From a virus, in IMG/VR virus record IMGVR_UViG_3300044712_001751, positions 1 through 47,152 of that record: a stretch of DNA of 47,152 nt. One strand, given 5' to 3'. Position numbers and translations under genes: made by a program. This document shows positions 1 to 47,152 of this stretch, piece after piece (position 1 is the first letter of the stretch; the number at the start of each line of letters is the position of its first letter). Under the pieces are notes generated by a model that saw only the letters and a list, made by a program, of their open reading frames with translations, was not told the DNA's origin and did no database searches.

Positions 1-127
1 AGTATCCCGTCAGCCCCCGCGAAAACCGATTGAACCACGAAGAGCACGAAGGACACGAAGGAGAACCGCATGTGCGATGACGGCATGTCGAAAAAGGAAC
101 GCAGCTTCGAACCGATCCGGTTGCTGG
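1..127. repeat. terminal redundancy, left copy (assembly overlap of a circular genome)
   Basis: Bases 1-127 are identical to 47026-47152. An exact overlap of 127 bases is what a de Bruijn assembler leaves when it closes a circle at its largest common k-mer, so the molecule is circular or circularly permuted, with a unique length of 47,025 bp. A physical direct terminal repeat is possible but less likely, because the copies cut through one gene (70-294) at one end and the tail of another (46867-47058) at the other. Confidence 0.93.
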
Positions 128-8378: not shown

Positions 8379-9569
8379 ATGGGCATGATTTGTACGCAAG
8401 AGGATTTGCGGCGGTACCTGCGTGGCGCCACCGGCAACGATCTGACCGTCGTTCTCACAAACGGCTGCTTCGACCTCTTCCATGCGGGGCATTTGCAGAC
8501 GCTGCGCTTCGCCAAGAAGCAGGGCGACCTGCTCGTCGTCGCGGTCAACACGGACGAATCGATTCGGACGCTCAAGGGTCCACACCGGCCGATCCACAAG
8601 CTCCAGGACCGGATGGAGCACCTGGCGGAGTTGGCCTGCGTCGACTACGTCGTGCCCTTCGGGACGGCTGCGGACCCGAGCGTGGAGCCGCTGGTGGCGC
8701 TCCTGAAGCCGGACGTCCTGGTCAAGGGCGGCGACTACACGCGCGGGACAGTGGTCGGCGGCGCGGTCGTGGAGCACCACGGCGGGCGGGTCGTGATTGC
8801 GCCGATTGTACCGGGGGCGTCGACGACAGGGACGATCACGGCGATGGGACGGGATACGACGCCCGACCTGCGCACCATTGCAGATATCCCCACGGTGCCG
8901 GGTGCTCTCGATGATAGTCCTCGTACTAAGGGCGATTCTGTTGGTTTCTGGAAGGAAGAAGACATCTCGGCAACCGGGGGGGCGACGCCCGCCGCATCCA
9001 CGCGAGCCCAACTCGCTCTCGTCGATCTCGACGGCGTCCTGGTCGATTTCTTCGGCTCGATGGCGCGGGCCTTGAATCTGCCGTGGGAGCCCGAGGAGTG
9101 CCGCGGCGAGTACGATCCGGGCAAGATCTTCGGCGTGCCGACCGACCTCTTTTCCCTGTTCGGCCCGGACTTCTGGGAGGCGGCGGGCTGGATGCCGGAC
9201 GGCCGGGAGATCTGGTCGACCGTGCTGCGGCTGTTCGGCGAGGAAAACGTCTACCTGTGCTCCTCGCCGACGCACGAGAGTTCCTCGCCGATGGGCAAAC
9301 TCCGCTGGATCGAACGGAACCTGGACGCCCAGTGGTCGCGGCGGTACATCTTCACGCCCTGCAAGAGCATTTTGGCGACCAACGAGACTTATTTGATCGA
9401 CGATTGCTATGAGGTCGTGGCCGCTTTTTGCCATCGGGGTGGCAGAGGCGTACTCGTGCCCCGCCCGTGGAACGTCCTCTGGGATTTTCACGACAGCTCC
9501 GGCGTGGTGGGCAACCTGGAATCACGCATTCGCCTGGGATTCGCGCACAGCGAGGAAATCGCGGTATGA
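8379..9569 (+). CDS. fusion: heptose-1-phosphate adenylyltransferase (HldE/RfaE C-terminal type) + HAD 5'-nucleotidase-like
   Basis: Residues about 20-150 form a nucleotidyltransferase: TNGCFDLFHAGH carries the HxGH signature, and PDVLVKGGDYTRGTVVG, GGRV and GASTTGTI match the HldE/RfaE adenylyltransferase domain, which converts heptose 1-phosphate and ATP to ADP-heptose. After a linker, residues about 208-380 form a HAD domain with LALVDLDGVLVDFFGSM, LCSSPTHESSSPMGK and YLIDDC, resembling 5'(3')-deoxyribonucleotidases. I know of no standard fusion of this kind. The usual HldE kinase domain is absent. It may supply activated sugar for the glycosyltransferases at 30346-33053. It overlaps the terminase gene by ATGA. 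A TagD-like cytidylyltransferase is less likely given the STTG motif. Confidence 0.85.
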   Translation: MGMICTQEDLRRYLRGATGNDLTVVLTNGCFDLFHAGHLQTLRFAKKQGDLLVVAVNTDESIRTLKGPHRPIHKLQDRMEHLAELACVDYVVPFGTAADPSVEPLVALLKPDVLVKGGDYTRGTVVGGAVVEHHGGRVVIAPIVPGASTTGTITAMGRDTTPDLRTIADIPTVPGALDDSPRTKGDSVGFWKEEDISATGGATPAASTRAQLALVDLDGVLVDFFGSMARALNLPWEPEECRGEYDPGKIFGVPTDLFSLFGPDFWEAAGWMPDGREIWSTVLRLFGEENVYLCSSPTHESSSPMGKLRWIERNLDAQWSRRYIFTPCKSILATNETYLIDDCYEVVAAFCHRGGRGVLVPRPWNVLWDFHDSSGVVGNLESRIRLGFAHSEEIAV

Positions 9570-11485
9570 CCGAACCACGGGCCACGGGTCACGAGTCACG
9601 AGTCACGCCCCTTCCCCTCTTCGACGAGGAGCGGGAGCTGCTGATTCCCCGGCAGCGGCCGGACATGGTCGCCTGGGCAGAGGCGAATTACGTCCTGCCG
9701 CGGGAGACGGCGCAGATGCACGGGCGCTGGTCCTCGGAGTACGTGCCTTTCTGGGTCGAGCCGATGCGCTGGTGGAGTTCGGGGACGCTGAAGGAGTTGG
9801 TCGCCGCGGCCTGCACGCAGGCGGGCAAAACGGAGTTCGCCAATATCGCCATGGGCTACGCCGCCGACGTGGACGCCGGGCCCTTCCTGATCGTTCTGCC
9901 CACCGAGGACGTCGCCAAGCAAAGGCTCGCCAGCCGGATCCGGCCGATGTTCCGCGCGTGCGCCCGCCTGATGCGAAAGATCGGCAACGATCTGAGCAAC
10001 TTCAACATCGGCAAAGAGACCTATCTCGACGACATGATCCTGTACGTCGGCTGGGCGAACTCCGCGATCACGCTCAGTGACAAGCCGATCCGGTACCTGG
10101 TCCTGGACGAGGCGGCGAAATATCCGATGGCGGTGGGCTCGGACACCGACCCGATCTCCTTGGGCAAGCGGCGCCAGCGTGGTTTCAGCCTCAACGCCAA
10201 GACGTTCATTCCGTCCTCGCCCATCCTCGAGGATGATCTCTTCTGGCGGGAATGGCTCCACGGCGATCCCTACGACTGGCACGCGCCCTGCCCGCACTGC
10301 GGCGCCTGGCATCAGATGGCCTGGGAGCACATCGTCCTGGACAAAGACGATCGCGGCCGGCTCCTGCCGGCGCGGGAGTACGCCCGCGGCGGTCATGCCC
10401 GCTACGTGTGTCCCAAGTGCGGGGCCTGCTGGACCGAATACGACCGCTGGCAGGCGGTGACGCGGGGCCGCTGGGTCCAGGCGGGGGCGAAAGTCCGCGA
10501 CGACGGCACGATCGAGGGTGACCGGCCGCCGGGCCCGGTCCGCTCGATCCGGATCTGGGCGGGTATGCTGCACCCGATCTTCCAAACGGTGGACGGTCTG
10601 GCGGCGGAGTGGGCGGCGGCGCAGGAGGCCAAGCACGCGGGCAACACCAAGCCCCTGCAGGACTTCATCAACAACCAGCTCGCCGAGCCGTGGAAAGAGA
10701 CGGCCAAATCGACGCCCATCGAGCAGCTCCGCACGCACATCGACCCCGGTCACGTCCTGGGCCTGGTGCCGCCGGGCGTCACGGTGATCACGCGGGGCCT
10801 GGACGTCCAGATCGACCATATCTACGTGGCCGACATCGGCTGGGGCGACTTGTGCCAGGCGTGGGTGCTGCACTACGACCGCATCGAGACGGGCGACACG
10901 AGCAAGCTCTCGAACTGGGACTTGGTCGAGCAGTACCTGCGGAGCGGCTGGCCGCTGGCGCAGGACCCCAAGACCCGCCGCCATCCCGCCCTGGCCTCGA
11001 TCGACTGCGCCTACCGGACGGAGGAGACGATCAACTTCTGCCGGCAGATGCAGCGGCAGGCTCTCAAGATCGTCCCCGCCCGCGGCTCCGAGCACATGCG
11101 GAAAGGCATCGTCGCCCCCTATAAGGACGCCAACCGCCAGGTCCTCCGCTACGACATGAACGAGGACCATTACAAGAGCGCCCTGCACTCGATGCTCTGG
11201 GGCACGGACGAGCCGGGCCCGGGCTATCTGCACCTGCCCCGGGACGTGACGGACGAGTTCCTGCAGCACCTGACGGCGGAGGAGGCCCGCGAGATCCCGG
11301 TCAAGGATAAGCGCGTCGTGATCTGGGTGAACAAGACCGGCCGCCCGAACCACTGGTGGGACTGCCTGGTGCACGCCCGCAACGCGGCGGAATTGATCGG
11401 CGTCCGCTGGCTGACGCCGCCGCGCCCGCCGACGAAGCCCGCCGGCAAGCCGGTGGCGAGGAAACCGATTCGAACCAAGTATTAA
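9566..11485 (+). CDS. terminase large subunit, GpA family
   Basis: The 639-residue length is that of lambda GpA. It has a Walker A-type ACTQAGKTEF, a Walker B-type YLVLDEAAKYP, two CPHC/CPKC zinc-like pairs around residues 245-290, and a nuclease domain in the C-terminal half (ITRGLDVQIDHIYV as the first acidic strand). It is the packaging ATPase and endonuclease. The N-terminus includes residues TGHESRVT encoded by a GTCACG-type dispersed repeat (9573-9607), just after the start. It overlaps the upstream fusion gene by four bases. Confidence 0.95.
   Translation: MTEPRATGHESRVTPLPLFDEERELLIPRQRPDMVAWAEANYVLPRETAQMHGRWSSEYVPFWVEPMRWWSSGTLKELVAAACTQAGKTEFANIAMGYAADVDAGPFLIVLPTEDVAKQRLASRIRPMFRACARLMRKIGNDLSNFNIGKETYLDDMILYVGWANSAITLSDKPIRYLVLDEAAKYPMAVGSDTDPISLGKRRQRGFSLNAKTFIPSSPILEDDLFWREWLHGDPYDWHAPCPHCGAWHQMAWEHIVLDKDDRGRLLPAREYARGGHARYVCPKCGACWTEYDRWQAVTRGRWVQAGAKVRDDGTIEGDRPPGPVRSIRIWAGMLHPIFQTVDGLAAEWAAAQEAKHAGNTKPLQDFINNQLAEPWKETAKSTPIEQLRTHIDPGHVLGLVPPGVTVITRGLDVQIDHIYVADIGWGDLCQAWVLHYDRIETGDTSKLSNWDLVEQYLRSGWPLAQDPKTRRHPALASIDCAYRTEETINFCRQMQRQALKIVPARGSEHMRKGIVAPYKDANRQVLRYDMNEDHYKSALHSMLWGTDEPGPGYLHLPRDVTDEFLQHLTAEEAREIPVKDKRVVIWVNKTGRPNHWWDCLVHARNAAELIGVRWLTPPRPPTKPAGKPVARKPIRTKY
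9573..9607 (+). repeat. GTCACG heptamer repeat inside the terminase N-terminus
   Basis: Three to four 7-bp units of the (G)GTCACGA type are read in frame as TGHESRVT. Related arrays lie at 13430-13455, 30773-30803, 37361-37402, 38277-38300, 42677-42702 and 46374-46400. Confidence 0.85.
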
Positions 11486-12764: not shown

Positions 12765-12771
12765 TAGAATC

Positions 12772-13044: not shown

Positions 13045-13091
13045 GGGCCACGTCGGCCAGGGCTGGCCCCCTGACGACGCGGCCCTTTTTT
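13045..13091 (+). terminator. rho-independent terminator or attenuator before the head genes
   Basis: A three-part stem: GGGCC (13045-13049) with GGCCC (13081-13085), CGTCG (13051-13055) with CGACG (13075-13079), CAGGG (13058-13062) with CCCTG (13069-13073). Six T follow. It ends only a few bases before the start of the next gene, so it may act as an attenuator. Confidence 0.75.
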
Positions 13092-13092
13092 A

Positions 13093-16350: not shown

Positions 16351-16395
16351 GTGTGGGGGCGGGTCTGAAAACCGCCTACACGAAGGAGATGGATC
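16351..16395 (+). promoter_or_regulatory. palindromic GGGCGGGTTT module with RBS, before decoration gene 1
   Basis: An imperfect palindrome (GGGCGGGTCTGAAAACCGCC) is followed by ACGAAGGAGAT and then the ATG. The same module precedes the genes at 16845, 21378 and the minus-strand gene 33198-33341; a degenerate copy precedes 43847. It supplies the Shine-Dalgarno. Confidence 0.75.
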
Positions 16396-16800: not shown

Positions 16801-16844
16801 TGTAGGGGCGGGTTTGAAACGCGCCCGTACGAAGGAGATCGATC
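16801..16844 (+). promoter_or_regulatory. palindromic GGGCGGGTTT module with RBS, before decoration gene 2
   Basis: TAGGGGCGGGTTTGAAAC and GCGCCCGTACGAAGGAGAT precede the ATG at 16845. It was either duplicated with the gene or inserted independently. Confidence 0.75.
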
Positions 16845-17306: not shown

Positions 17307-17369
17307 TCGCCGGGCAGGAGTGAAACGTAGTTGGCCGGCCCGCCGGCGGATTCCAAGGAGAATTATCCC

Positions 17370-23795: not shown

Positions 23796-25003
23796 TGTAC
23801 AATTTCGCCGGCGATGCCAACTGCGTAGCACGATACCGCTTTCAGGCCGACGCTCTGACGGCGGACTCCAAGGGCACGAACGAACCGCTGCTCAGCCCTA
23901 CGGAAGATCAGACGCCGACCGCCAACCCGTTCGATTACCGGGAGTTCTCCGCGTCGGCCCACTTCGACCGGAGCCTTTCCCAGTTCTTCAGCCTTGCCGA
24001 TGCCTATCTGGACGCGGGCTTTCCCGGCAAGAGTGGCACGACGAACAAGACCCTCTCCATCACCTGCTGGATCAAGCTCGAGTCCCTGAACGCCAGTTGC
24101 ACCTTCGTCAATAAGGCGGGCGGCTACTCCAGTTGTTTCTGGTTGCGGGTCAACGACGCCACCCTGCAGTGGCTGATCGGCGACGGTGCGATGGGGTGGG
24201 AGACGTATTCTTTCGGCACCGTCTTGCAAACGGACCGCTGGTATCACGTGGGAGTCACCTACCGGGACGACACCAAGGCCTGGCGGATTCGCGTCTGGGA
24301 CGACACCGCCCAGGCCCTGCTGGCGGCGGACGCCACCGGAACGGGGACCTACAACATCGGCACGCCGGCGAATACGCCGTTTTACATCGGCTCGGCCGCC
24401 GGCTTTGCCTCCCACTGCTTCGACGGCTGGATCGACGAGGTGGTGATCTTCAACGATATCCTCACTCCCACTGAAATCGACACCATCCGCGCCGGCGGCT
24501 CTTCCTCGTCCTCCTCGTCCTCGTCGAGCTTGTCGTCGTCGTCGAGCGCGTCGCTCTCCTCTTCGTCCTCGGACTCCTCCAGCAGCAGCTTCGTTCCGCT
24601 GGCATGGCCCACGCTGAGTAAGGGCGTCGAGTTCGACACGCAGGAGCTGGCCGGGGCCCATGACGTCACCATACCCATGGGCAATGGCCAGGTGAAGATC
24701 CGCCCGCGCTACACGCGCAGGCCGCACCGCTGGCGGATTCGCTATCGGTTGCTGACGCTCGATGATCGGATGGCCTTGGAGCGGTTCTATCACATCGACT
24801 GCCAGCGGAGCAAATATACGTTCGCGTTCGTCGAGCGGGGCATGAATCAGACCTGGCTCGTCCGTTGGGATCCGGATGAGCCGCCCCGGTTCGCGCATGA
24901 GGAGCGTTGCCCGGGCAAGTTCCGTCTGGACGCTGTCCTGCTCGAGGACTGCGCCGGCTCCTACGGCAGCGGCCAGTATGGGGCACAGTATTACGATTCG
25001 TAG
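23795..25003 (+). CDS. distal tail protein with LamG (concanavalin-like) domain, Ser linker and tail-tip domain, copy 1
   Basis: Residues 1-230 form a LamG-like sandwich: CVARYRFQADALTADSKGTN, FDRSLSQFFSLADAYLDAGF, SITCWIKLESL, RWYHVGVTYRDDTKAWRIRVW and CFDGWIDEVVIFNDILTPTE. Residues 236-265 are almost all Ser. Residues 266-402 (WPTLSKGVEFDTQELAG...) form a second domain like those of tail-tip proteins in the M/L region. LamG modules commonly bind glycans, so this may contact the host surface. Tandem paralogue of 25012-26232. Confidence 0.82.
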   Translation: MYNFAGDANCVARYRFQADALTADSKGTNEPLLSPTEDQTPTANPFDYREFSASAHFDRSLSQFFSLADAYLDAGFPGKSGTTNKTLSITCWIKLESLNASCTFVNKAGGYSSCFWLRVNDATLQWLIGDGAMGWETYSFGTVLQTDRWYHVGVTYRDDTKAWRIRVWDDTAQALLAADATGTGTYNIGTPANTPFYIGSAAGFASHCFDGWIDEVVIFNDILTPTEIDTIRAGGSSSSSSSSSSLSSSSSASLSSSSSDSSSSSFVPLAWPTLSKGVEFDTQELAGAHDVTIPMGNGQVKIRPRYTRRPHRWRIRYRLLTLDDRMALERFYHIDCQRSKYTFAFVERGMNQTWLVRWDPDEPPRFAHEERCPGKFRLDAVLLEDCAGSYGSGQYGAQYYDS

Positions 25004-25011
25004 GGACGTGC

Positions 25012-26232
25012 ATGGCGAACAATTTTTCCAGCGATGCCAACTGCGTTGCCTTATGGCGCTTCGAGAACGGGGCCCTGACCACCGACTCCAAGGGCTCGAA
25101 CACCCTGACGGCCTCGGCCTCTGCACCGACGGCCGACACGACCAACAAGAAGGAGGGTGGTGCGAGTGCGGACTTTGAGAAGGATAATTCGCAATACTAC
25201 TCCATCGCCGACGCCTCCCTGTCCGCCGGTTTCCCCTGCAAGAATGGCACGACGAATCGGACCTTTAGTGTGTGCGTGTGGGCGAAATTCGAGACTACCA
25301 GCTCGAACCACACATTCATCTTCAAGAACGGCTATTGGCTCCGCCTCAGTTCCACGAAGGTGCAAGTCTGTATCAATAACGGGGGCTGGCAGGTATTTGA
25401 ACACACTGCGGTTCTGGTAACCGGCCGATGGTATCACATCGGTATGACGTACGAGGATACGGGCAAGACGTACCGGATTCGCGTTTGGGATGACACAGCG
25501 GGAGCCCTTGCGGCGGCGGACAAGACCGGAACTGGCACGGGGAGCATTGTCGTTGACACCACGGTTGTTACTATCGGCGGAAGTACGGGTGGGGGATGGC
25601 TATTCGACGGGCTCATGGACGAGATGGTAGTCTGTAAAGATGTCCTGACCGCCGACGAGATCGATCAGATTCGCGCCGGGACGTACGGCGCTTCGTCCAG
25701 CAGCAACTCCTCGTCGTCCTCTTCCTCGATCAGTTTCAGCAGTTCCTCGTCCTCCTTCTCTTCTTCGTCGCTGTCTTCGTCCTCGCAATCCTCATCGAGC
25801 AGCTATTCGTTCAGTTCATCGAGCTGCAGCAGCGTGGCCCCGCTGGTCTTTCCCACACTGAGTAAGGGCGTAGACCTGTCGATCGGCGAGGACATTGCCG
25901 ACGCCGGTCAGCTCGCCTCGGATCCGAATCAGGGCCGCCGGCTGGTCCGTGCGATCGCGTACAAGGCGAGTCATCGCGTGCGACTGAGCGTCAGCTACAT
26001 GACCCAGGCGGACCGCCGCACGCTGGCCCGGTTCTACCTGACCACGGCGGCCGGTCCCGTGCAGGTCTGGGAGTGGACTCATCCCAAGAGCGGCCAGACG
26101 TATCTCCTGAGCTTCGACCCCGAAACCCCGCCGATCTGGTCGCGCGAGCCCCGCCAGCCGGACAAGCATCACGCGGAGATGACGCTGATCGAGCACCTCG
26201 CCGACGGCTATTTGACAGGAGTCTATTCATGA
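25012..26232 (+). CDS. distal tail protein with LamG domain, Ser linker and tail-tip domain, copy 2
   Basis: The same three-part plan as its neighbour: LamG (NNFSSDANCVALWRFENGAL, FSVCVWAKFE, RWYHIGMTYEDTGKTYRIRV, LFDGLMDEMVVCKDVLTADE), a 47-residue Ser linker (228-274) with Asn, Ile, Phe and Tyr interruptions, and a C-terminal domain (FPTLSKGVDLSIGEDIADAG...). Divergence between the copies is moderate, so the duplication is old or the copies are specialised. It overlaps the L-like gene as ATGA. Confidence 0.82.
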   Translation: MANNFSSDANCVALWRFENGALTTDSKGSNTLTASASAPTADTTNKKEGGASADFEKDNSQYYSIADASLSAGFPCKNGTTNRTFSVCVWAKFETTSSNHTFIFKNGYWLRLSSTKVQVCINNGGWQVFEHTAVLVTGRWYHIGMTYEDTGKTYRIRVWDDTAGALAAADKTGTGTGSIVVDTTVVTIGGSTGGGWLFDGLMDEMVVCKDVLTADEIDQIRAGTYGASSSSNSSSSSSSISFSSSSSSFSSSSLSSSSQSSSSSYSFSSSSCSSVAPLVFPTLSKGVDLSIGEDIADAGQLASDPNQGRRLVRAIAYKASHRVRLSVSYMTQADRRTLARFYLTTAAGPVQVWEWTHPKSGQTYLLSFDPETPPIWSREPRQPDKHHAEMTLIEHLADGYLTGVYS

Positions 26233-26843: not shown

Positions 26844-26983
26844 CCACACAGAGAGCACAGAGAAGAGTTTAAGACACGGATTCACACGGATGAACACGGA
26901 TTGTAACCACCTGGCTCAAAGAGGGGAAAACCCAGAAACAGGTCTTGCCTGCCTCCGTGCCCTCTGTGCCTCTGTGGCGAACC
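26842..26983. repeat. dispersed inverted repeat between L-like and J-like genes
   Basis: It has an outer left arm (26844-26868), an inner left arm (26872-26902) and an outer right arm (about 26953-26982); the inner right arm is missing. It interrupts an otherwise overlapping tail operon. Confidence 0.8.
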
Positions 26984-27002: not shown

Positions 27003-29423
27003 ATGCCGGCGCAACAACGATCCATCTGGACGAGTGTCGCGATGATCGCCCTGGCGGTCGCCGCCACGATCGTGGCCGGCCCTGCCGGGCTGGCCCTGTC
27101 GGCCGGCTGGGCCACGGCGTTCACGGCCGTCGTGACGATCGCCGGCGGCATGATCATCTCGCGCGAGCTGGCGGCCAGTCAGCCCAAGGGCCCCGAAGGC
27201 TCCCAGGCCTACGCCTGGAACCCGCAGACCCTCCAGCGGGCCGGCGGCTCGATGCCGAAATCCTTCGGGCGCAACCGGCTGCACGGCAATATCATCGCCT
27301 GCTACACCGAGGAGGTCAACACGGTCAGCGGGGCCCAGGCGGCGGTCACCAAGAGCGAGCAGCGTCTGAATCTGCTGATCGACTACGGCGAGGGCCCGGT
27401 CGAGGGGCTGGTCGCGGATTCCGTCTTGATCAACGGCCAGCCCGCGACCAGTTGGACCAACGTGGCGACGGAGTTTCGCCGCGGCCTGCTGACGCAGACC
27501 GCCTGCAGCAAGTTCGCCGGCGAGATGCCCGTCGAGATCCCCGTCGGGATGCCGGTGACGCTGGCCGACGGCGCCAAAACATACACCACGCCGGACAAGC
27601 ATTTCGACGTGCTGGAGGTCGTACTGGAGTTCCCGCAGGGGATCTTCGATCGCCATCAGGACGGCAATGTGGACACCTACGCCGTCGGCGTCAAAATCGA
27701 GCTGGCGGTCGCCGGCACGGGGGCCTGGGGCACGCTGTTCGCCGGCAACGTCTGGGGCTACAGCTACTACGCCGTGCGCCGCACCTTCCGCAGCGACACC
27801 GCCTACACCGGCGGTGCGCCCGTGACGATCGCGCGGGGCAGCCAGTACGACGTCCGCGTCACCAAGACCACCGGCGACTACTCCGGCGAAGAGGCGACCC
27901 GCCACGGCGCGGACCTGAAGATCTACAGCGTCCGCGAGATCCTCAGTATCGGCTTCACCTTTCCCGGCCGGGCCGTCCTGCAGGTCAGTGCCCTGGCCAC
28001 GAAGGAACTGAGCGGCTCGCTCGATGTCTCGGTCGAGCTGGATGGCGCGATCGTCAATACCGACATGACCGGCGGCACGACGCTGGAGTTCAGCGACAAC
28101 CCGGCCCACGTGCTGTTCGACGTACTCACCATGCCGGTGATCTCGGGCGACGGCAGCGGCACGGCCTACGCGATCGAGGAATACCGGGGCCCCTGTCTGC
28201 CGACAGACCCGATCCTGGGCACGTTCGCCACGCTGGAGTCCTACGCCGACGCTCTGGTCGCCGACGGGGCGGGCGGCACGGAAAAGCGGCTCACGTTCGA
28301 CGGCTTCTTCGACACCGACAGCTCGGTCGGCGACGCGGTGACGGAGATCTGCGCCGTGAGCCGCTGTCATCTGCTCTGGCGGGGCAATCAACCCTATGTC
28401 CAGATCGATACGAGCCGCACGCCCGTGGCCCTCCTGTGCGACGGCAACGGCCGCCGCAACGGCCGCGAGACCCTGATCCCCGCCGACGAGCGGGCCTCGG
28501 AGATCGAGGTCCACTATCGCGACGCCCTGGCCGACTACGACCGCACGCCGATCCTCGTGCGGAACCCGGCGGTCCAGAACAATCACAAGGTCACCCTGCA
28601 GGTCAACGGCGTCACGAAGCAGTCCCGGGCCGTGCGGATCATGAATTTCGAGCTGAAGCGCAATCAGTACGTCACGCGGCAATTGCGCCGCACGATGCAG
28701 TTCGACGGCTGGATCCTGGAAGTGGGCGACCCGGTCTACGCCCAGCGGCCGGGCCGGTCCTGGGGCGGCCGGCTCCAGCAGGTCAGCGGCCGGCGGCTGC
28801 GGATCGATCGGGATGTGCGGCGCTCGCAGGCGGACCGCATCATCGTCCAGGCCTACAACCCGGCGACGCAGTCCTGGGCCCTGGAGAGCCACACCGTCGC
28901 CTGGATCGACGGCCGGACCCTCCAGATCGGCGAAGACTGGTCGACGGTCACGCCGGCGGCGGGCAATGTGTACCTCTTCGGTCCGGACGCCATCAAGGAT
29001 GACCAGTTCGAGATCGTGAACCTCCGCCGCAGCGGCGATCACGAGTTCGTGGTGGACCTGGTGACGTACGATTCGCGGCTCTTCGATGCCGACGACACCG
29101 CCCCGGTGATCGTCTCGGACGTGGGCGTCAGCCGGGCCCGGCGGGGCACGACGAGCGTGATTGCCCCCGCGACGCAGGCCCAGGTCGAGAACGCCAACCC
29201 GCCGGGCGTCGAGCAGATCACGAGCACGCCCCTGGACGGGGTGGTCTCGCTCAAGAACGGCACGCGGATCTATGTGGACGCCAACAACGTCACCCGCCTC
29301 CAGCGGTACGAGGCGGGCGTCTGGAAGGACATGCAGACCTGGGGCTCGGCGTCCTCCTCCTCGAGTTCCTCGGTCTCCTCCAGCAGCAGTTCGAGCAGTT
29401 CCTCATCGAGTGCCGGAGCATAG
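27003..29423 (+). CDS. tail tip protein J-like (central tail tip/receptor region), poly-Ser C-terminus
   Basis: 806 residues. Residues 8-55 hold two hydrophobic segments like those of gpI, possibly a fused I part. Then follow J-family phrases: SMPKSFGRNRLHGNIIACYT, LLIDYGEGPVEGLVADSVLI, IYSVREILSIGFTFPGRAVL (ALxVTA-type motif), LLWRGNQPYVQID, and VRIMNFELKRNQYVTRQLRR. The end (LKNGTRIYVDANNVTRLQRY...) is followed by a serine tail of about 22 residues ending SSSAGA. At 806 residues it is shorter than lambda J (1132), lacking much of the C-terminal receptor part. Confidence 0.88.
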   Translation: MPAQQRSIWTSVAMIALAVAATIVAGPAGLALSAGWATAFTAVVTIAGGMIISRELAASQPKGPEGSQAYAWNPQTLQRAGGSMPKSFGRNRLHGNIIACYTEEVNTVSGAQAAVTKSEQRLNLLIDYGEGPVEGLVADSVLINGQPATSWTNVATEFRRGLLTQTACSKFAGEMPVEIPVGMPVTLADGAKTYTTPDKHFDVLEVVLEFPQGIFDRHQDGNVDTYAVGVKIELAVAGTGAWGTLFAGNVWGYSYYAVRRTFRSDTAYTGGAPVTIARGSQYDVRVTKTTGDYSGEEATRHGADLKIYSVREILSIGFTFPGRAVLQVSALATKELSGSLDVSVELDGAIVNTDMTGGTTLEFSDNPAHVLFDVLTMPVISGDGSGTAYAIEEYRGPCLPTDPILGTFATLESYADALVADGAGGTEKRLTFDGFFDTDSSVGDAVTEICAVSRCHLLWRGNQPYVQIDTSRTPVALLCDGNGRRNGRETLIPADERASEIEVHYRDALADYDRTPILVRNPAVQNNHKVTLQVNGVTKQSRAVRIMNFELKRNQYVTRQLRRTMQFDGWILEVGDPVYAQRPGRSWGGRLQQVSGRRLRIDRDVRRSQADRIIVQAYNPATQSWALESHTVAWIDGRTLQIGEDWSTVTPAAGNVYLFGPDAIKDDQFEIVNLRRSGDHEFVVDLVTYDSRLFDADDTAPVIVSDVGVSRARRGTTSVIAPATQAQVENANPPGVEQITSTPLDGVVSLKNGTRIYVDANNVTRLQRYEAGVWKDMQTWGSASSSSSSSVSSSSSSSSSSSSAGA

Positions 29424-29734: not shown

Positions 29735-30349
29735 ATGGAAACACCCATCGATTACGCCGACCTGCTCGCCCGGGGCAATCGCCGCATGACGGAGCACGAT
29801 CTCCGCCTGCTGGTCGAGACCTGCGCCGCGGTCGGTGCCAAGACCATCGTGGAGATCGGCTCCAAAGACGGCTGCAGCACGCTGGCCATGGGCCTGTGGG
29901 CAAAAGAGCACGGCGCGCAGCTCTTCTGCGTGGAGCCGGTCCCGACCGGTCGCTGGCTGCAGAATGTCCACGACCTCGCCGTGGCGAGCGTCATCACGCC
30001 GCTGCGGTATTTCTCGCCCTGGGTCCCGCTGGCCGAGGTTCCCTGCCCGATCGACGTACTGCTGATCGACGGCGACCACCGCACGAGCCGGGCCATCGCG
30101 GATTACATCTTCTGGGGCCGGTTCGTCCGCCAGGGCGGCCGGATCGCCTTCCACGACATCGACGGCGGCAAGGGCGTCGCGCCGGACATCCGCAGGGCGG
30201 TCGAGATCTGCGTCCGGGACGACAATCTCAATAGTCCCCAGGGCCCGGATCGCCTGATCCATCAGGTCGCCCGGACCCCGCCGTCCCGCGACCGCGGCCT
30301 GGTCGTCTTCGAGAAGGGCACTCCCGCCGAGCCGCTGGAGGTCCCATGA
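29735..30349 (+). CDS. class I SAM-dependent methyltransferase (CmcI/Methyltransf_24-like)
   Basis: 204 residues with a Rossmann layout: motif I as TIVEIGSKDGCSTLAMGLWA, then FCVEPVP, the acidic strand VLLIDGDHRTSRAIADY and IAFHDIDGG. The IDGDH motif is typical of the cephalosporin hydroxylase-like/Methyltransf_24 group, often found in sugar and O-antigen clusters. It probably O-methylates a sugar or glycan made by the neighbouring glycosyltransferases. It overlaps the next gene as ATGA. Confidence 0.8.
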   Translation: METPIDYADLLARGNRRMTEHDLRLLVETCAAVGAKTIVEIGSKDGCSTLAMGLWAKEHGAQLFCVEPVPTGRWLQNVHDLAVASVITPLRYFSPWVPLAEVPCPIDVLLIDGDHRTSRAIADYIFWGRFVRQGGRIAFHDIDGGKGVAPDIRRAVEICVRDDNLNSPQGPDRLIHQVARTPPSRDRGLVVFEKGTPAEPLEVP

Positions 30350-31104
30350 CCCCCATCGGTCTTATCCGTCCCCTGGTCCTGCCTGCCTGGTTCGGCGAGT
30401 TCGGCTGGGAGGTGATGAGCTGGGCCCCCTGGTGCCGGGCGCGATCGCGCGAGGCAGGCGGCGCGGTGATCACCAGCTTCGGCGCCAGCCGCGCCCTCTA
30501 CGCGGACTTCGCGACACAGTTCCGCGACCACGGCGGCACACAGCGGAGCCTGGACTATCCGAAAGGCTACGCCCTGTACCGCAGCGACGGCCCCGGCTTC
30601 GAGCACGTGCGCTACGGCAACCCCGATGACGGGGAGCCGTTCGACGTCCTGATCCACGCCCGGGGCATCCAGCGTAAATCCGCCATCAACTACTGCCGTT
30701 GGTGCGAGGTCCTCGCCGCCCTGCAGGGCCTGAAGGTGGGATTCATCGGCACGTCGGCCGACCTGTTCGAACGGGTCACGGGTCACGAGTCACGGGCCAC
30801 GTGCCGCGACCTGCGCGGCCTGTCCCTCGATCGCCTGATGGCCACGATCGCCGCCTCGGACATGGTGGTCGGCTGCTCGAGCGGCACGATGCACCTGGCG
30901 TCCGCCTGCGGCTGCGACCTGGTCGCTTGGGGCGACACGAAGACCCGCTACGGCGAGACGCTGGAGCGGCGCTACAAAGAAACCTGGAACCCGCATCGCG
31001 TCCGGGTCGAGTGGCTCGACGCCGACGACTGGCAGCCAAACCCGGCCCGCGTGGTCCAGGCCATCGAACATCTGCTGGCTTTAGGCCAGTCACCCGTCCC
31101 ATAG
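30346..31104 (+). CDS. glycosyltransferase, GT9 (heptosyltransferase)-like, 252 aa
   Basis: The C-terminal half carries the GT9 nucleotide-sugar site: SLDRLMATIAASDMVVGCSS, then GTMHLASACGCDLVAWG, as in WaaC/WaaF-type heptosyltransferases. The N-terminal half has WFGEFGWEVMSWAPW in place of the usual glycine loop. Residues around 143-151 (RVTGHESRAT) are translated from an in-frame GTCACG repeat. At 252 residues it is shorter than GT9 enzymes (about 350), so it may be degenerate or a compact variant. Confidence 0.75.
   Translation: MTPIGLIRPLVLPAWFGEFGWEVMSWAPWCRARSREAGGAVITSFGASRALYADFATQFRDHGGTQRSLDYPKGYALYRSDGPGFEHVRYGNPDDGEPFDVLIHARGIQRKSAINYCRWCEVLAALQGLKVGFIGTSADLFERVTGHESRATCRDLRGLSLDRLMATIAASDMVVGCSSGTMHLASACGCDLVAWGDTKTRYGETLERRYKETWNPHRVRVEWLDADDWQPNPARVVQAIEHLLALGQSPVP
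30773..30803 (+). repeat. GTCACG heptamer array inside a glycosyltransferase gene
   Basis: Four 7-bp units lie in frame inside 30346-31104, between the two half-domains where a loop can be tolerated. Confidence 0.85.
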
Positions 31105-31145
31105 GTCCCATCGGTCCTATAGGTCCCACGAAAGGAAAAACGACA

Positions 31146-33053
31146 ATGCAGTTCACCGACACCATCGACCCCAGCGCCAAGCTGCGGGTGATCTTTCGCA
31201 ACCATCAATGCCTGCTGGGCGATCGCCTGGCCATGACGAGCTTCGTCCGGGACGTGAAGGCCACCTACCCGCAGTGGGAGATCTTCGTCGACGTCGAGAA
31301 GCCCGACGTCTGGCGGCACAATCCGCACATCGCGGGCCTGCTGCTGCCGGGCGATCCCGAGCCCGAGAAGATCGATTTCGCCTGGAACGTGGGCCCGGGC
31401 AAAGCCACGCAGGGCAGCAAGGCCAACGGCGTGCACCTGATCCGCGCCTTCGCCTGGGGTTGGAGCCGGATGACCGGCCTGCCCGTCAGGGACGGCCCCT
31501 GGCGGCCGGATCTGCATCTGTCCGAGGAGGAACTCGCCTACCATCCGGTCGCGGGCGACTACTGGGTCTTCAATCCCGACACGAACAATATGGGCTCCAA
31601 ACGCTGGCCGACCGAGAGCTGGCAGGAACTGATCCGCTCGATTCCGCACGTGCGGTTCGTGCAGATCGGCCTGGCGAAGGACTGTTATGCCGATTTCGCC
31701 GCCGAGCCGAACGTGATCAGCCTGGTCGGCCAGACCACGGAGCGGCAGCTCTTCGCTTTGGTCCGCCACGCCGCCGGCTGTGTGGGCCTGCTCTCGTCGA
31801 TCGTGCACATCGCCGCCGCGATGCAGCGGCCCTGCGTGGTCCTGGCCGGCGGCCGCGAGCCGGACACCTTCGCGCGTTATCCCGGGCACTACTACCTCAG
31901 CCGGGTCGGCATGCTCGACTGCTGCCGGGATCTGGCGTGCTGGAAGAACTCGATCACGGCCTGCAAGGACCAGGTCGAAACACCGGCCTACCCAGTCAGT
32001 CGCTGCATGACGTTGATCACCCCGGCCGACGTCGCCCGCGGCATCGAGCTCTATTCGTCCCATCGGTCCCCTGTGTCCTATCCGTCCCGGGCTCCGCTCC
32101 TTCGCATCGTGACGAACGGCAAGTGTCTCGGCGGCGCCGAGCGATCGGTGGTGAGCATCGCCCGCATGTTCCGCGCCCGGGATTGGCAGGTCGAGATCGC
32201 GACCCGTCAGCCGATGTGCGAGGCCCTGCGTCGCGCCCTCGAGGGCATCGCGATCGAGACGGATCGGGTCAGCAGTCCGTGCGACTGCCTGCTCTGGTAC
32301 GCCAGCGACCAGGTCTACGACGCCCACCTGCCCGAGTTCGACCCGCTCCGCGCGGCCGCGGCGAGCGCAAAGCGGCGGGTCATGGCCCTGACGTACAAGC
32401 TCGGCAAGGTCCCGGACCTCGACTGGTGCCACGACTGGGACCAGTATCTTTTCTTATCCTCCGCCATGGCGGAGGCCCTGTCCCACAAGTCCCATCGGTC
32501 CCATCCGTCCCAAGTCCTGGCCCCCGCGGTCGACCTGGCTCCCTTCCTGACCGTGGAGCGTGACTATCGCACAGGCCTGTCCGTCGTGCGTCACAGCAGC
32601 CAGGGCGACAATAAGTGGCCGGTCACGACGCAGGATCTCGTCCATGCCTGCCCGAACGCGGCCTTCTTCTTCATGCCCGCGCCGAGCTGGCTGGAGCCTT
32701 GCGATCGCGTGGGTCGCCTTCCGTATGGGGAAATGCCCGTGCCCGATTTTCTCGCGAAGGGCAACCTCTTCCTATATCTCCTCCCGCCGGGCTACACGGA
32801 TCAGGGCCCGCGGGTGATCGTGGAGGCCATGGCAGCCGGTCTGCCGGTGATCACGGAGCGTCGCGACGGCGCCGCCGATCGCGTGACGGACGAAACAGGC
32901 TGGTTTGTCGAATCGTGGGAAGAGGCGGCCGGGATCATCAACGGCGTCGCGCCGGACCTCCTGGCGGCCAAGGGTCGCGCTGCCCGGGAGCGGGCCCGCA
33001 CGGTCTTCGACCCCTGGAACTGGTACCGAGCCATCAGCGGCGAAACGGCATAG
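31146..33053 (+). CDS. bifunctional glycosyltransferase: GT9-like + GT4-like domains
   Basis: 635 residues. Residues 1-310 resemble GT9: VIFRNHQCLLGDRLAMTSFV, WVFNPDTNNMGSKRWPTESW, FVQIGL, TTERQLFALVRHAAGCVG, LLSSIVHIAAAMQRPCVVLAGG. Residues 325-635 resemble GT4: RIVTNGKCLGGAERSVVSIA, then PPGYTDQGPRVIVEAMAAGL and PVITERRDGAADRVTDETGW. Two short stretches (SSHRSPVSYPS and SHKSHRSHPS) are translated from the TCCCATCGG repeat family. It probably adds two sugars in series. Confidence 0.83.
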   Translation: MQFTDTIDPSAKLRVIFRNHQCLLGDRLAMTSFVRDVKATYPQWEIFVDVEKPDVWRHNPHIAGLLLPGDPEPEKIDFAWNVGPGKATQGSKANGVHLIRAFAWGWSRMTGLPVRDGPWRPDLHLSEEELAYHPVAGDYWVFNPDTNNMGSKRWPTESWQELIRSIPHVRFVQIGLAKDCYADFAAEPNVISLVGQTTERQLFALVRHAAGCVGLLSSIVHIAAAMQRPCVVLAGGREPDTFARYPGHYYLSRVGMLDCCRDLACWKNSITACKDQVETPAYPVSRCMTLITPADVARGIELYSSHRSPVSYPSRAPLLRIVTNGKCLGGAERSVVSIARMFRARDWQVEIATRQPMCEALRRALEGIAIETDRVSSPCDCLLWYASDQVYDAHLPEFDPLRAAAASAKRRVMALTYKLGKVPDLDWCHDWDQYLFLSSAMAEALSHKSHRSHPSQVLAPAVDLAPFLTVERDYRTGLSVVRHSSQGDNKWPVTTQDLVHACPNAAFFFMPAPSWLEPCDRVGRLPYGEMPVPDFLAKGNLFLYLLPPGYTDQGPRVIVEAMAAGLPVITERRDGAADRVTDETGWFVESWEEAAGIINGVAPDLLAAKGRAARERARTVFDPWNWYRAISGETA

Positions 33054-33901: not shown

Positions 33902-33946
33902 TTCCAGATCCCTACAGGGACAGACGCCCGACCGGGAAGAATCTTC

Positions 33947-33993
33947 AACCACGGAGAACCAGACACGGATTTACACGGAGGGACACGGATTTT
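33947..33993. repeat. dispersed repeat, left arm of a pair bracketing 34097-34450
   Basis: CCACGGAGAACCAGACACGG and ACACGGAGGGACACGGAT units. The inverse arms are at 34537-34607. Confidence 0.75.
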
Positions 33994-34520: not shown

Positions 34521-34536
34521 ATCCCCCCAAAATCCG

Positions 34537-34607
34537 TGTCCCTCCGTGTGAATCCGTGTCTAAATTCTTCTCCGTGCCCTTTGTGTCTCCGTGGTGAAAT
34601 CTGCGGC
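34537..34607. repeat. dispersed repeat, right arm (inner plus outer units)
   Basis: AATCCGTGTCCCTCCGTG, GAATCCGTGTCTAA and TTCTCCGTGCCCTTTGTGTC units; reverse complements of 33947-33993. Confidence 0.75.
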
Positions 34608-34617: not shown

Positions 34618-34658
34618 GGGGGCCGTCGCCAGATGGGATAGGAGACGGCCCCCAGGAG
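34618..34658 (-). terminator. terminator of the minus-strand pilin gene
   Basis: GGGGGCCGTC and GACGGCCCCC arms (about 34620-34655) enclose a 15-nt loop; on the minus strand the stem is followed by TGCTATTTTC. Confidence 0.7.
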
Positions 34659-34676: not shown

Positions 34677-34865
34677 TCACTGTGGCGCTTTGTTTCCGTT
34701 ACTCAGCGCGGCCGCCAGCTTGTCGAAAATCCCGTTGATGTGCTGACCGACTGTCGTGATCACAAGGATTGCGATCACGATCACCAGCCCCGCCATGATC
34801 GCGTACTCCGACAGCTCCAAGCCCTGCTCATCCCGCACGAACTTTCCCAATAGCTTTCTCATCAT
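34677..34865 (-). CDS. Flp/Fap-type class IVb pilin
   Basis: The 62-residue product begins MMRKLLGKFVRDEQG, then LELSEYAIMAGLVIVIAILV. This is the Flp prepilin signature: a basic leader, cleavage after Gly15, Glu at mature position 5 followed by Tyr, and one hydrophobic helix. A TadV-type peptidase would process it and a Tad machine would assemble it; neither is encoded here, so it must rely on the host. AGGAG precedes the start and a terminator follows. It lies alone against the direction of the neighbouring genes, as a lysogenic-conversion (moron) gene would. Confidence 0.9.
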   Translation of the reverse strand: MMRKLLGKFVRDEQGLELSEYAIMAGLVIVIAILVITTVGQHINGIFDKLAAALSNGNKAPQ

Positions 34866-35051
34866 ATTCTCCTATCCTCACGAAACCCTTCCGAAAACAG
34901 CAGAACGCCCGCCGTTTGCTTGTAAGAGGGCTGGTGAGAAGTTGGCACAACTACCAGCCCCATAGGCCGCCCGGATCTGACCCCAGGCGTACTGCACGTC
35001 ACCGGCCGGTTGCATGGGCCGACCCGTGGACGATTACAGCCAATTTTGTCC

Positions 35052-36082: not shown

Positions 36083-36117
36083 GAGTCTTTTACCTATTTT
36101 AACAGATTCCGGATTTT

Positions 36118-36178
36118 GCACCACGAAGGGCACGAAGAGCACGAAGTTCAAAACCACAGAGATCACGGAGGCTATGGA
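36118..36178. repeat. dispersed repeat units before 36181
   Basis: GCACCACGAAGGGCACGAAG and CCACAGAGATCACGGAGG units; the last supplies GGAGG/GGAGC before the ATG. Confidence 0.7.
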
Positions 36179-36660: not shown

Positions 36661-37052
36661 CTCATCAATCAACAGTCGCCACGTAGGCCGAGGGCACAGG
36701 GAAAAATGGCAGGAAGCCGAATCCATTTGAACAGGGCGGTTCTTCTCCGTGCCCTCTGTGCCTCCGTGGTGCATCGATCCCCGCCGGCCGGCAACACCAT
36801 CCATCGAGCTGCACACTCAGTTCGGTTACCGGTCCGGCCTTGCTTTCTCTGCGGCTCCAGGTCATCTCGCTTCCTCTCCCTCCGCTCCTGGAGCCGCTTT
36901 TTTGGATATCGCGCCGGGCAGAGCTCGTGGCCCTGTCCCGGTCTGGTCTACGCAGAGCCGGCAGGATCGACCGGCGGCAGGGACGCTGCCGGCCGGGTCC
37001 TGCGGGCAAAGACATTTCGCCACAGAGAACACGGAGAACACGGAGGTAGATC
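36661..37052. other. 392-bp interval without a credible gene; repeats, terminator, hairpin
   Basis: It contains repeat units at about 36748-36775, a terminator (36851-36903), a large nested G/C hairpin (36959-37007) and repeat units at 37017-37046 that form the leader of 37053. Frames that cross it (for example from 36749) run through the terminator and show no coding character. Confidence 0.6.
36851..36903 (+). terminator. rho-independent terminator
   Basis: GCGGCTCCAGG (36851-36861) pairs exactly with CCTGGAGCCGC (36887-36897); six T follow. The loop of 25 bases is long. Confidence 0.75.
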
Positions 37053-38322: not shown

Positions 38323-38394
38323 TGCGGGGTAGAGCAGCGGTAGCTCGTTCGGCTCATAACCGAGAGGTCGGAGGTTCGAATCCTCCCCCCGCTA
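38323..38394 (+). tRNA. tRNA with anticodon CAU (initiator-like tRNA-Met)
   Basis: A full cloverleaf: acceptor G2-G7 with C66-C71, D stem GAGC/GCTC, anticodon loop CTCATAA, T stem GGAGG/CCTCC with TTCGAAT, discriminator A. T1 faces T72, so the 1:72 pair is open, and A11-T24 is present; both are marks of bacterial initiator tRNA. The three G-C pairs at the base of the anticodon stem are not the classic GGG/CCC (C29-G41 is reversed). CCA is not encoded. It could therefore initiate, or be an Ile2/Met elongator relative. Confidence 0.9.
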
Positions 38395-38599: not shown

Positions 38600-38647
38600 G
38601 GCATCGGGCCGGTGTGCCTGGTGCTGTGCCGTAGATTGGAGGTCTAC

Positions 38648-39685
38648 ATGCCTGAGCATAGCACGCTGAGTGAGCTATTTGACAAGTTTGATGCGTCTTC
38701 CGTAACCCAGGGAACGACCCGGAAGAAGTGCCGGACGGCCTGGCGGGTTTTGATGCACCTGCTGGGCCCGGACTATCCGGCGGCCGAGGTGGTATCCGAG
38801 GACTTCGACCGCATGCAGAGGTATCTGCGGGACGAGGCCGTGAGCCGGTTCGGCAAGGCCTTTTCGGAGCATACGATCTTTTCGTATGTGGCGGCGGCGG
38901 GGCAGGTCTTCTGCTGGGCCGTCGACGGCAAACGCCTGGCCGCCAATCCCGCACGGGATTGTCACCGGATGAAGCCGACGAAGAAGAAGGTCCACATCTA
39001 CAGCCGCGAGGAGATCAGCGACATGCTGGACACCGTGCGGGGCAACCCGGAGCGGGACATCGAGGCCTTGCGCTGGCCGGATGCCGCCGGACTGCTGCGG
39101 TGGACGGGCTTTTTTCTGACGGCCCTGACGGGTCCGCGCATCGGCGAGATCTGGAATTTCCGCTGGGACGATATCGATCTCGATGCCGGGGAGCTGCGGA
39201 TTCAGGCCCGGCCGGATCGACCCGGGGAGTACTGGCGGTGGGGCAGTAAGGGCAAGGCCGATCGGCGGGTGCCGATGAGCGACGAGCTCTGGGCTTTGCT
39301 CTGCCGGCTGCGGTCGGTGGCGCCCTGGCGGTATCCGTTCCTCAAGGAGCGGACCTGCCGGCGCCAGCAGGGCAGGATCGGCCGATTGAGTGAGACCCAG
39401 AGGAAGTATCCGTACAACAACTTCCACCGGGAGCTCGATCGGGTCGTCGTGGCGACGAACGCCCGCAGAGTGCGGGCCGGCCGCGAGCCGATCCGGGAAG
39501 GGACGTTTCACACGTTGCGGAAGAACGCGGCCACGGTGATGGCCGAGGCCGGCGTGCCGAGCCATTTCTGCCAAGAGATCCTCGGACACGCCAGCGATCG
39601 GCTCACCAAAGAGGTCTACACGTATGTAGACCAGCGTAAATGCCTGGACGAGAGTCGCCGGGCGTTCAACGCGGCGTCCTGGTGA
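38648..39685 (+). CDS. int: tyrosine recombinase / phage integrase
   Basis: 345 residues. A core-binding SAM-like domain (about 1-95) is followed by the catalytic domain. Arg164 lies in GPRIGEIWNFRW, a Lys in KADRRVPMS, H288-x-x-R291 in FHTLRKNAATV, His314 in LGHASDR and the nucleophile Tyr324 in TKEVYTYVDQ. The ATG at 38648 has TTGGAGG six bases upstream. It inserts the phage into the host chromosome, and the tRNA 3'-half 24 bases after its stop is the likely recombination site. Confidence 0.95.
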   Translation: MPEHSTLSELFDKFDASSVTQGTTRKKCRTAWRVLMHLLGPDYPAAEVVSEDFDRMQRYLRDEAVSRFGKAFSEHTIFSYVAAAGQVFCWAVDGKRLAANPARDCHRMKPTKKKVHIYSREEISDMLDTVRGNPERDIEALRWPDAAGLLRWTGFFLTALTGPRIGEIWNFRWDDIDLDAGELRIQARPDRPGEYWRWGSKGKADRRVPMSDELWALLCRLRSVAPWRYPFLKERTCRRQQGRIGRLSETQRKYPYNNFHRELDRVVVATNARRVRAGREPIREGTFHTLRKNAATVMAEAGVPSHFCQEILGHASDRLTKEVYTYVDQRKCLDESRRAFNAASW

Positions 39686-40240: not shown

Positions 40241-40421
40241 TTGGATCTCACAGCCCCCGCGGCGTCTGAGCGGGGCTCTCATCGCGCCGGCCCCAAGGCG
40301 TATGTCGGACCCCGCTCGCGAGCACGAGTGCGGTCGGGCCGGGCAGATACGACTCGGGCCGCGAGTCCCGAGCGTCGCTGGAATGCTGCCCGCCGGCGTG
40401 ATCGTGGAAACCCAAGGACGT

Positions 40422-40523
40422 CACCACGGAGAAGAGACTCAGACACGGATTCACACGGAGGGACACGGATTGATCTCCGAGAAGAATAGGTCTTCCGTGT
40501 GAATCCGTGAAATCCGTGTCTAA
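40422..40523. repeat. inverted dispersed repeat before 40543
   Basis: Left arm at 40441-40470 (ACACGGATTCACACGGA) and right arm at about 40493-40521 (TCCGTGTGAATCCGTG...), with an outer unit CACCACGGAGAAGAG on the left. Confidence 0.8.
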
Positions 40524-40542: not shown

Positions 40543-40671
40543 ATGTACCGCATCAGAATTATCACCCATCAGGCCCGCGAGCTGCTCGCGGCGATCGCCG
40601 CGGCCGCCTGGGCCGGACTCTGCCCCCAGGACGAGGATTTGGTCCGCTGCGGCGTCCGCATCGGAAGGTGA
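40543..40671 (+). CDS. small protein, 42 aa
   Basis: AAGGAG lies seven bases before the ATG. The peptide MYRIRIITHQARELLAAIAA then AAWAGLCPQDEDLVRCGVR has an amphipathic or weakly hydrophobic helix and two Cys. No family recognised. Good ribosome-binding site and GC codon pattern support it. Confidence 0.55.
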   Translation: MYRIRIITHQARELLAAIAAAAWAGLCPQDEDLVRCGVRIGR

Positions 40672-40710
40672 AGAAGGTCTAACCACGGAGAGCACGGAGG
40701 ACACGGAGAA

Positions 40711-45496: not shown

Positions 45497-45509
45497 GCTA
45501 CCGAAACCG

Positions 45510-45545
45510 ATTGAACCACGAAGAGCACGAAGGTCACGAAGGGCG
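45510..45545. repeat. CGAAG-type dispersed repeat before 45558
   Basis: Nearly the same as 30-62 (and 47055-47087), beginning ACCGATTGAACCACGAAG. Both copies sit between genes. Confidence 0.8.
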
Positions 45546-45557: not shown

Positions 45558-46409
45558 ATGAATAGACGGATCATCCGAGTGTTTCCGCGGCGGACGAAGG
45601 CCGTGCCAACCGATGAGATGGCCTTTGTCGGCGATCCGCCCCTTTTCCGACCGGAGGCCGACGAGGTCCATATCTCCATCACATTCACCTGGGATTTGGG
45701 CCGGATGGGGCACCTGTATACGGCATGGAAGCAGTACTACTCCATCGTCAGAATCGGCGGTCCCGCAGTTCATCCCGACCCGGGCGACTTCGAGCCGGGA
45801 CTGTATCTCGCGCCGGGCTACGTCATTACGACTCGCGGTTGCCCGAATCGCTGCGCCTACTGCTTCGTCCCGGAACGGGAAGGGCCCCTGCGTGAATTGC
45901 CTATCCGGGATGGTCACGACATTCTCGATAACAACCTCCTGGCCGCCAGTCGTGGGCACGTCGATCGGGTGCTGAATATGCTCAGCCGCCAGAAGAAGCG
46001 GGCCCGCTTCACCGGGGGACTGGAGGCCCGCCGAGTAGAGCCCTGGTTCGCGACTGCACTGAAGGACATCAGAACGGAGATCGGCTTCCTCGCGTACGAC
46101 CGGCCGACGGACCGCAAGCCCCTGCAGGACGCGGCCCAACTCCTGCTGCCGTGCTTCACGAAGCGGCGTCTCGGCTGCTATGTACTTTGTGGCTTTCCCG
46201 GTGACACGATCGAGGCGACTCGGGAGCGATGCCAATTCGTGGCGGACCTGAGCATGATGCCCTTTCCGATGTACTACCGGGCTCGCGACTGGAAAGGCCG
46301 GGTGCCGAGCGATTGGCAGGCGTTCATTCGGCTGCACGCGAGGGGCGTGCCGTACCAAGCCCCGGCGACGGCGGGTCACGGGTCACGGGTCACGGGAGAC
46401 GGCCTATGA
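45558..46409 (+). CDS. radical SAM enzyme, 283 aa
   Basis: The Fe-S motif is RGCPNRCAYCF (C-x3-C-x2-C). Later come FTGGLEARRVEPWFATALKD and YVLCGFPGDTIEATRERC, as in radical SAM TIM barrels. Substrate unknown; similar phage genes are annotated only as radical SAM. The last residues (AGHGSRVTGDGL) come from a GTCACG repeat. The stop overlaps the ASCH gene by ATGA. Confidence 0.85.
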   Translation: MNRRIIRVFPRRTKAVPTDEMAFVGDPPLFRPEADEVHISITFTWDLGRMGHLYTAWKQYYSIVRIGGPAVHPDPGDFEPGLYLAPGYVITTRGCPNRCAYCFVPEREGPLRELPIRDGHDILDNNLLAASRGHVDRVLNMLSRQKKRARFTGGLEARRVEPWFATALKDIRTEIGFLAYDRPTDRKPLQDAAQLLLPCFTKRRLGCYVLCGFPGDTIEATRERCQFVADLSMMPFPMYYRARDWKGRVPSDWQAFIRLHARGVPYQAPATAGHGSRVTGDGL

Positions 46410-46870: not shown

Positions 46871-47058
46871 GCGCAGACCGACAAGGGAAGCCACTGTTTA
46901 TGAGGTCAAGCTGCAGAATGGAATGGTTGTGCAGCAGTTGTGGCTGTCACAACACCGCGATCAAGATCAATGGCCCTGGATCGTATCGCCGCCGCTGTCG
47001 AAGGTGCAACAGGTACACCAATATCAGTATCCCGTCAGCCCCCGCGAAAACCGATTGA
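46867..47058 (+). CDS. small zinc-ribbon protein, 63 aa
   Basis: AAGGAGA precedes the ATG; ATGA overlap with the ASCH gene. CSSCGCHNTAIKINGPGSYR then RRCRRCNRYTNI gives C-x2-C...C-x2-C, a zinc ribbon. It ends in the terminal-redundancy region. Confidence 0.7.
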   Translation: MSADRQGKPLFMRSSCRMEWLCSSCGCHNTAIKINGPGSYRRRCRRCNRYTNISIPSAPAKTD

Positions 47059-47152
47059 ACCACGAAGAGCACGAAGGACACGAAGGAGAACCGCATGTGC
47101 GATGACGGCATGTCGAAAAAGGAACGCAGCTTCGAACCGATCCGGTTGCTGG
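47026..47152. repeat. terminal redundancy, right copy
   Basis: Identical to 1-127. It includes bases 47095-47152, the first 58 bases of the gene annotated at 70-294. Confidence 0.93.

Follow-up and report, generated by a model that had tools for sequence, protein, structure and literature searches.

An orphan Tad pilin gene in a temperate tailed phage as a candidate lysogenic-conversion gene

Introduction

What could a temperate phage gain from a single pilus subunit if it carries nothing with which to assemble it? Bacteria use Tad pili as adhesins for surface adherence (PMC11067988), and phages use them as receptors. According to that study, Caulobacter PilA has a 14-residue leader, and a hydrogen-bond network connects Glu19 to Ala17 and Tyr20 of neighboring subunits; Glu19 and Tyr20 are crucial to Tad pilus assembly, while neither is needed for the pilin to be expressed or processed. 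PhiCb5, an RNA phage, touches four neighboring pilins at once, and the PilA surface differences N43R and T51A accompany lost PhiCb5 adsorption (PMC11067988).

The locus that raises the question belongs to the IMG/VR virus record IMGVR_UViG_3300044712_001751, which we analyzed along its whole 47,152 nucleotides (referred to as the window). Its pilin gene had been picked out from the sequence as a probable conversion gene. Here, we describe this gene, the phage around it, and the recurrence of similar genes in other virus records, and we weigh the roles that they might have.

Identity of the pilin gene

The pilin corresponds exactly to one minus-strand open reading frame (Table 1), with the translation MMRKLLGKFVRDEQGLELSEYAIMAGLVIVIAILVITTVGQHINGIFDKLAAALSNGNKAPQ. 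The Pfam profile Flp_Fap (PF04964) matched it over its full length at residues 9 to 54 (E value of 2.4e-7, 30.9 bits, slightly under the curated cut-off of 32.2). A profile of 25 distinct virus-borne Flp pilins (see below) scored it at 51.6 bits (E value of 2.8e-15), against 6.5 bits for the next-best ORF of the window and a top score of 8.1 bits among 76,158 ORFs from 60 dinucleotide-shuffled windows. In the PDB its sole relatives were Caulobacter-type PilA/Flp pilins (E value of 0.01), and a profile of 10 pilins retrieved PilA 8u1k at 3.3e-13. The search of NCBIfam gave nothing meaningful and that of PHROGs no match for the window pilin; for eight pilins tested, PHROGs offered no convincing family (best E value of 0.024).

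Counted from the second ATG, the protein begins with a basic leader of 14 residues that ends in glycine. Cleavage is predicted after this Gly14, leaving a mature part of 47 amino acids that starts with LELSEY and includes Glu19 and Tyr20, at the same positions as in the published description of Caulobacter PilA. After cleavage these residues would become Glu5 and Tyr6, as expected of Flp/Tad pilins. An alignment of 10 pilins had seven invariant columns, among them Asp12, Glu13, Gly15, Glu20, and Tyr21 (62-residue numbering). AlphaFold2 modeled the 62 residues as a single helix (residues 2 to 57; mean pLDDT of 83, pTM of 0.46) with no globular domain. The score far above the shuffled controls and the intact leader, Glu19, and Tyr20 confirm the original prediction of a complete Flp prepilin.

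The signals around the gene agree with that prediction in part. Its own ribosome-binding site is represented by a Shine-Dalgarno-like AGGAG, spaced 3 nt from the first ATG and 6 nt from the second. The proposed terminator stands as a strong GC-rich hairpin after the stop codon (-32.7 kcal/mol for the folded stretch, z of -2.96), but the U run a few bases downstream is only UUUU, and a consensus scan detected no terminator and, on the minus strand, no promoter.

Table 1. Positions of the features described in the text, in the window unless another record is named.
Feature	Positions	Strand	Remark
Terminal direct repeat, left copy	1..127	+	exact, 127 bp
Terminal direct repeat, right copy	47026..47152	+	exact, 127 bp
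DUF5131 and radical-SAM genes	1130-2047 and 45558-46409		
Terminase large subunit, TerL	9428..11485	+	GpA type, phage hallmark
Portal	13011-15002		
Duplication, two copies	16352-16651 and 16801-17100		directly upstream of major capsid gene
Major capsid	17331-18326		
Tape measure	21378-23795		
LamG/concanavalin-like lectin ORFs	23795-25003 and 24907-26232		between tape measure and tail tip
Tail tip J-like protein	27003..29423	+	late module, upstream of cargo region
Methyltransferase and glycosyltransferases	29735-33053		
ORF with glycosyltransferase domains	30699..33053	+	GT9, GT group 1; cargo-like, between tail and pilin
Inverted copies of second repeat	33961-33993 and 34529-34561		
Hairpin 3' of pilin stop	34618..34653	-	imperfect terminator (short U run); folding
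Flp/Tad prepilin	34677..34865	-	62 aa, or 61 aa from second ATG
Shine-Dalgarno-like AGGAG	34869..34873	-	upstream of pilin start; sequence reading
tRNA-Met(CAT)	38323..38394	+	adjoins integrase
Tyrosine integrase	38612..39685	+	
tRNA upstream of integrase, record L005	9653-9727		tRNA-Met
tRNA upstream of integrase, record L004	8813-8885		tRNA-Ile(TAT)
39-mer repeats	23-61, 3184-3222, 36109-36147, 37008-37046, 40671-40709, 45504-45542 and others		
Second repeat	975-1031, 12746-12802, 26846-26902, 33935-33991, 34529-34584, 40415-40471		intergenic
Two Flp pilins, record G325 (L066)	9304-9465 and 9681-9875		

Phage genome and position of the pilin

Both ends of the contig share an exact direct repeat of 127 bp, which we take to be a common assembler k-mer length. 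The record is therefore very probably a closed circle, that is, a complete phage genome of ca. 47,025 bp (a repeat could also produce a false closure), and the pilin gene lies inside the phage and not in flanking host DNA. Structural genes and a tyrosine integrase are found within this one genome of a temperate phage. Beyond the integrase there are metallopeptidase, Dam-like methylase, and radical-SAM genes. The DUF5131 ORF also matched a "radical SAM mobile pair" model weakly.

The pilin is located 1.6 kb past the glycosyltransferase ORF and 3.5 kb ahead of the tRNA-integrase region. Its minus-strand orientation, opposite to its tail, glycosyltransferase, tRNA, and integrase neighbors on the plus strand, is as claimed at the outset. 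Each of the three closest integrases is immediately preceded by a tRNA gene (tRNA-Met in the window and in L005, tRNA-Ile in L004), which points to the tRNA-Met as the likely attachment-site region and would place the pilin close to an end of the prophage once integrated. By position, as cargo between the late genes and the integrase, it may fairly be called a typical conversion gene. As for a transcription unit of its own, the opposite strand, the AGGAG, and the hairpin are in place, and no consensus promoter or terminator was found.

The Tad assembly system had been said to be absent, and our searches for its parts agree. Neither the T2SSE motor ATPase (detected in 14 of 14 control genomes) nor the A24 prepilin peptidase (detected in 12 of the 14) was present anywhere in the window, and Pfam scans of 30 ORFs besides the pilin gave zero Tad components.

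Several repeated elements were also observed. The two adjoining lectin ORFs have a 98-nt repeat in common, and the 300-nt duplication ahead of the capsid gene is 89% identical, with starts 449 nt apart. A family of 39-mers is present in 11 copies (ACCACGAAGG-CACGAAGG / ACCACGGAG-CACGGAGG). Five of the 16 forward matches to its motif have their ends no more than 20 nt from a called start codon (crude calls, for part of the window genes), as if the repeat supplied a ribosome-binding site. A second dispersed repeat (AGACACGGATTCACACGGA) has inverted copies that bracket the ORF adjoining the pilin. Its regular-expression form was found in none of the 28 related phage loci checked, and its exact form in none of 288 Verrucomicrobiota genomes.

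Orphan pilins in other virus records

A scan of IMG/VR with the degenerate motif D-E-x-G-x4-E-Y-[G/A]-h-h-A gave 32 stretches, and translation left 27 records with Flp pilins (28 pilins, 25 distinct). The other five stretches (L032, L038, L054, L058, and L062) were dropped because the region after the motif was not a pilin helix. All 27 records have a pilin above the Pfam cut-off and none has a T2SSE motor ATPase; they are viral by the IMG/VR classification, with phage hallmarks checked in part of them. This recurrence of orphan Flp pilins in virus records without the motor ATPase is the new element of our analysis. Other searches gave no further members: 16 stretches from an IMG/VR scan for close relatives of the window pilin included no relative, and a narrow pilin motif had zero matches over IMG/VR. 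A tblastn search with P0001, part of PilA, and another viral pilin matched none of 50,697 phage records, which is no proof of absence because short hydrophobic queries are weak probes.

We fetched the pilin contexts of 13 of the 27 records and scanned selected neighbors in nine. Some pilins lie deep within their records (at 33.3 of 54.0 kb in G319, 20.5 of 53.3 kb in G331, and 20.7 of 53.3 kb in G320). In G320 and G331 the pilin is flanked by the antiterminator and TerL, while in G319 it is at most 2 kb from TerL and in G324 at most 3 kb from the portal gene. G325 resembles the window arrangement, with two pilins past the tail module on the opposite strand; the scanned neighbors in G328, G342, G334, and G316 have no assigned function or are not hallmarks. 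The two G325 genes, side by side, encode different Flp pilins, and a transposase-like ORF lies beyond them. By crude gene calls, 9 of the 13 contexts (7 of 13 with ORFs of at least 45 aa) have the pilin running counter to both of its nearest ORFs of at least 100 aa.

In phage lambda, the lysis genes are near the antiterminator-TerL interval. The pilins of G320 and G331 thus sit close to the lambda lysis-gene position, which, like the predicted single helix of 62 residues in the window, would suit a small membrane protein that descends from a pilin and has been turned to another purpose, e.g., as a peptidase or motor poison or as a lysis accessory. We regard this as very improbable, since such a protein would not need the residues of assembly and the cleavage-site Gly, Glu19, and Tyr20 are all kept; the usual placement of the pilin on the strand opposite to its neighbors also argues against it.

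To look at selection, we used seven pilins, all different, from a single sequence group (L034, L036, L037, L049, L050, L051, and L060; identical copies omitted), which belongs to another phage group than the window phage. The dN/dS ratio was 0.08 to 0.45 in all 21 pairs. Up to about residue 32 the change was almost only silent (pN of 0.04, pS of 0.45), while beyond it, in the outer half, pN was 0.31 and pS 0.62. Given the low ratios and the nearly silent N-terminal change, the pilins borne by these phages appear to be under functional constraint, their assembly core being fixed. The variable outer half may also be normal for host pilins, as the comparison was among viral pilins only.

Related phages and host searches

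To place the window phage among its relatives, IMG/VR was scanned with TerL, the integrase, and the major capsid protein, and 27 records, mostly fragments, were gathered. None of them carries the pilin gene, which therefore shows no sign of being a family trait and looks like recent or variable cargo. One record (G314) had a PF04964 match (E value of 0.00124) that was rejected because it is a short membrane stretch in which the pilin motif is missing. In the relative G004, a PAPS-reductase ORF and a minus-strand DUF6745 ORF are located between the tail-type ORFs and the tRNA-integrase region, which suggests a similar slot holding other cargo.

Absence from all 27 relatives, fragmentary as most of these are, would also be expected of an accidental passenger, i.e., a host pilin gene acquired by imprecise excision or recombination and of little or no function to the phage. 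The lower GC content of the gene (55.6%, compared with 64.5% for the phage) and the missing consensus promoter point the same way. We nevertheless think it unlikely, as all the key prepilin residues and the ribosome-binding site are intact, orphan pilins without the motor recur in other virus records, at least 27 of them, and purifying selection acts in one, although a different, pilin group.

As for the host, a scan of genome contigs with the TerL alignment gave 38 stretches with a single weak relative, in a Verrucomicrobia MAG. Among 288 Verrucomicrobia genomes, the window pilin matched one (E value of 4.4e-4) and the integrase profile, run without a positive control, matched none. Judging by the style of the repeats, we suspect Planctomycetota to be the host phylum. 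Plasmid searches with the pilin and with a window repeat were empty, and those with TerL and the integrase had matches solely below 60% identity.

Proposed role of the phage pilin

The explanation that we put forward, and to which we would give an even chance, is that of a lysogenic-conversion pilin that joins the Tad pili of the host and alters the pilus surface, with defense against pilus-binding phages as its most plausible use. The orphan gene would be expressed in the lysogen from its own strand, the prepilin would be cut by a host TadV-type peptidase, and the host motor would build it into the host's own Tad pili, which would become mixed. The invariant core residues would permit assembly, and the diverged outer half would change the pilus surface. 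Since PhiCb5 binds four pilins and two residue differences go with the loss of its adsorption, the admixture of a foreign pilin could impair binding sites of this kind. The likeliest benefit would then be that the multi-subunit site of pilus-dependent phages is spoiled, a superinfection exclusion by receptor dilution, with altered adhesion of the lysogen as the second candidate. The initial statement that the pilin must join or poison host Tad pili was too strong, but the intact Glu19 and Tyr20 favor joining over poisoning. The missing consensus minus-strand promoter and the absence of the gene from the 27, mostly fragmentary, related records count against the conversion role that we propose, as does the origin of the purifying selection in another phage group and not in the window gene.

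The adhesion of the lysogen, or its biofilm, might be what the pilin chiefly alters, as a conversion for host fitness with no anti-phage role. This is possible, though we lean against it. Adherence is a known service of Tad pili, the Flp pilins of Vibrio harveyi prophages were interpreted, by database match, as virulence or adherence factors (PMC12482185), and the cargo near the window pilin is glycosyltransferase-like. The assembly step is identical to that of exclusion, and the data do not separate the two.

Extending conversion by co-assembly beyond this phage is more tentative. Orphan Flp pilins could be widespread and overlooked conversion genes, in which the lone Tad pilin of many unrelated temperate phages would co-assemble with host subunits and scramble the multi-pilin site to which Tad-dependent phages bind, an exclusion by subunit substitution that we find somewhat doubtful. 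The published phage defenses against pilus-binding rivals considered here inhibit the assembly machine. If the idea were true, a phage-supplied pilin would edit the receptor, and the pilus would be kept while its binding partners change. The 27 other virus records, perhaps including phages with culturable hosts, make it testable; G320 and G331, to judge by their IMG numbers, seem to come from isolates.

Comparison with known systems

The window pilin resembles Caulobacter PilA (PDB 8u1k and 8u2b) in its 14-residue basic leader ending in Gly, its Glu19-Tyr20 pair, and its single helix, and the mature lengths are similar (47 and 45 aa, respectively). Unlike the Flp/Tad major pilins of PF04964, it is phage encoded, comes without a Tad motor or peptidase, and scores slightly below the Pfam cut-off.

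Flp pilins in prophages have already been published. One case is that of the tailed V. harveyi prophages phi345 and phiGANI1709 (PMC12482185), in which Flp pilins are annotated; they share with our case an Flp pilin in a tailed phage and differ in host and phage. Another is a Flp family type IVb pilin (COG3847, count of 2) in Sinorhizobium meliloti phiLM21-like prophages (PMC12429752); it is likewise an Flp pilin inside a prophage, known from a table row. Among the open-access journal papers searched, we came across none that deals with orphan Flp pilins of phages as a group or puts one to the test.

The nearest functional parallel comes from Pseudomonas phages, which guard their lysogens by blocking type IVa pili: PfsE acts on PilC (PMC8764522), and Aqs-1 and D3112 Gp05 act on PilB (PMC11436027). 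The likeness is that of a phage gene altering a pilus that serves as a phage receptor, which for the window gene is a proposal. The Pseudomonas proteins inhibit the type IVa machinery, whereas the product of the window gene is itself a pilus subunit, from a different class of pili, and would have its effect by changing the pilus.
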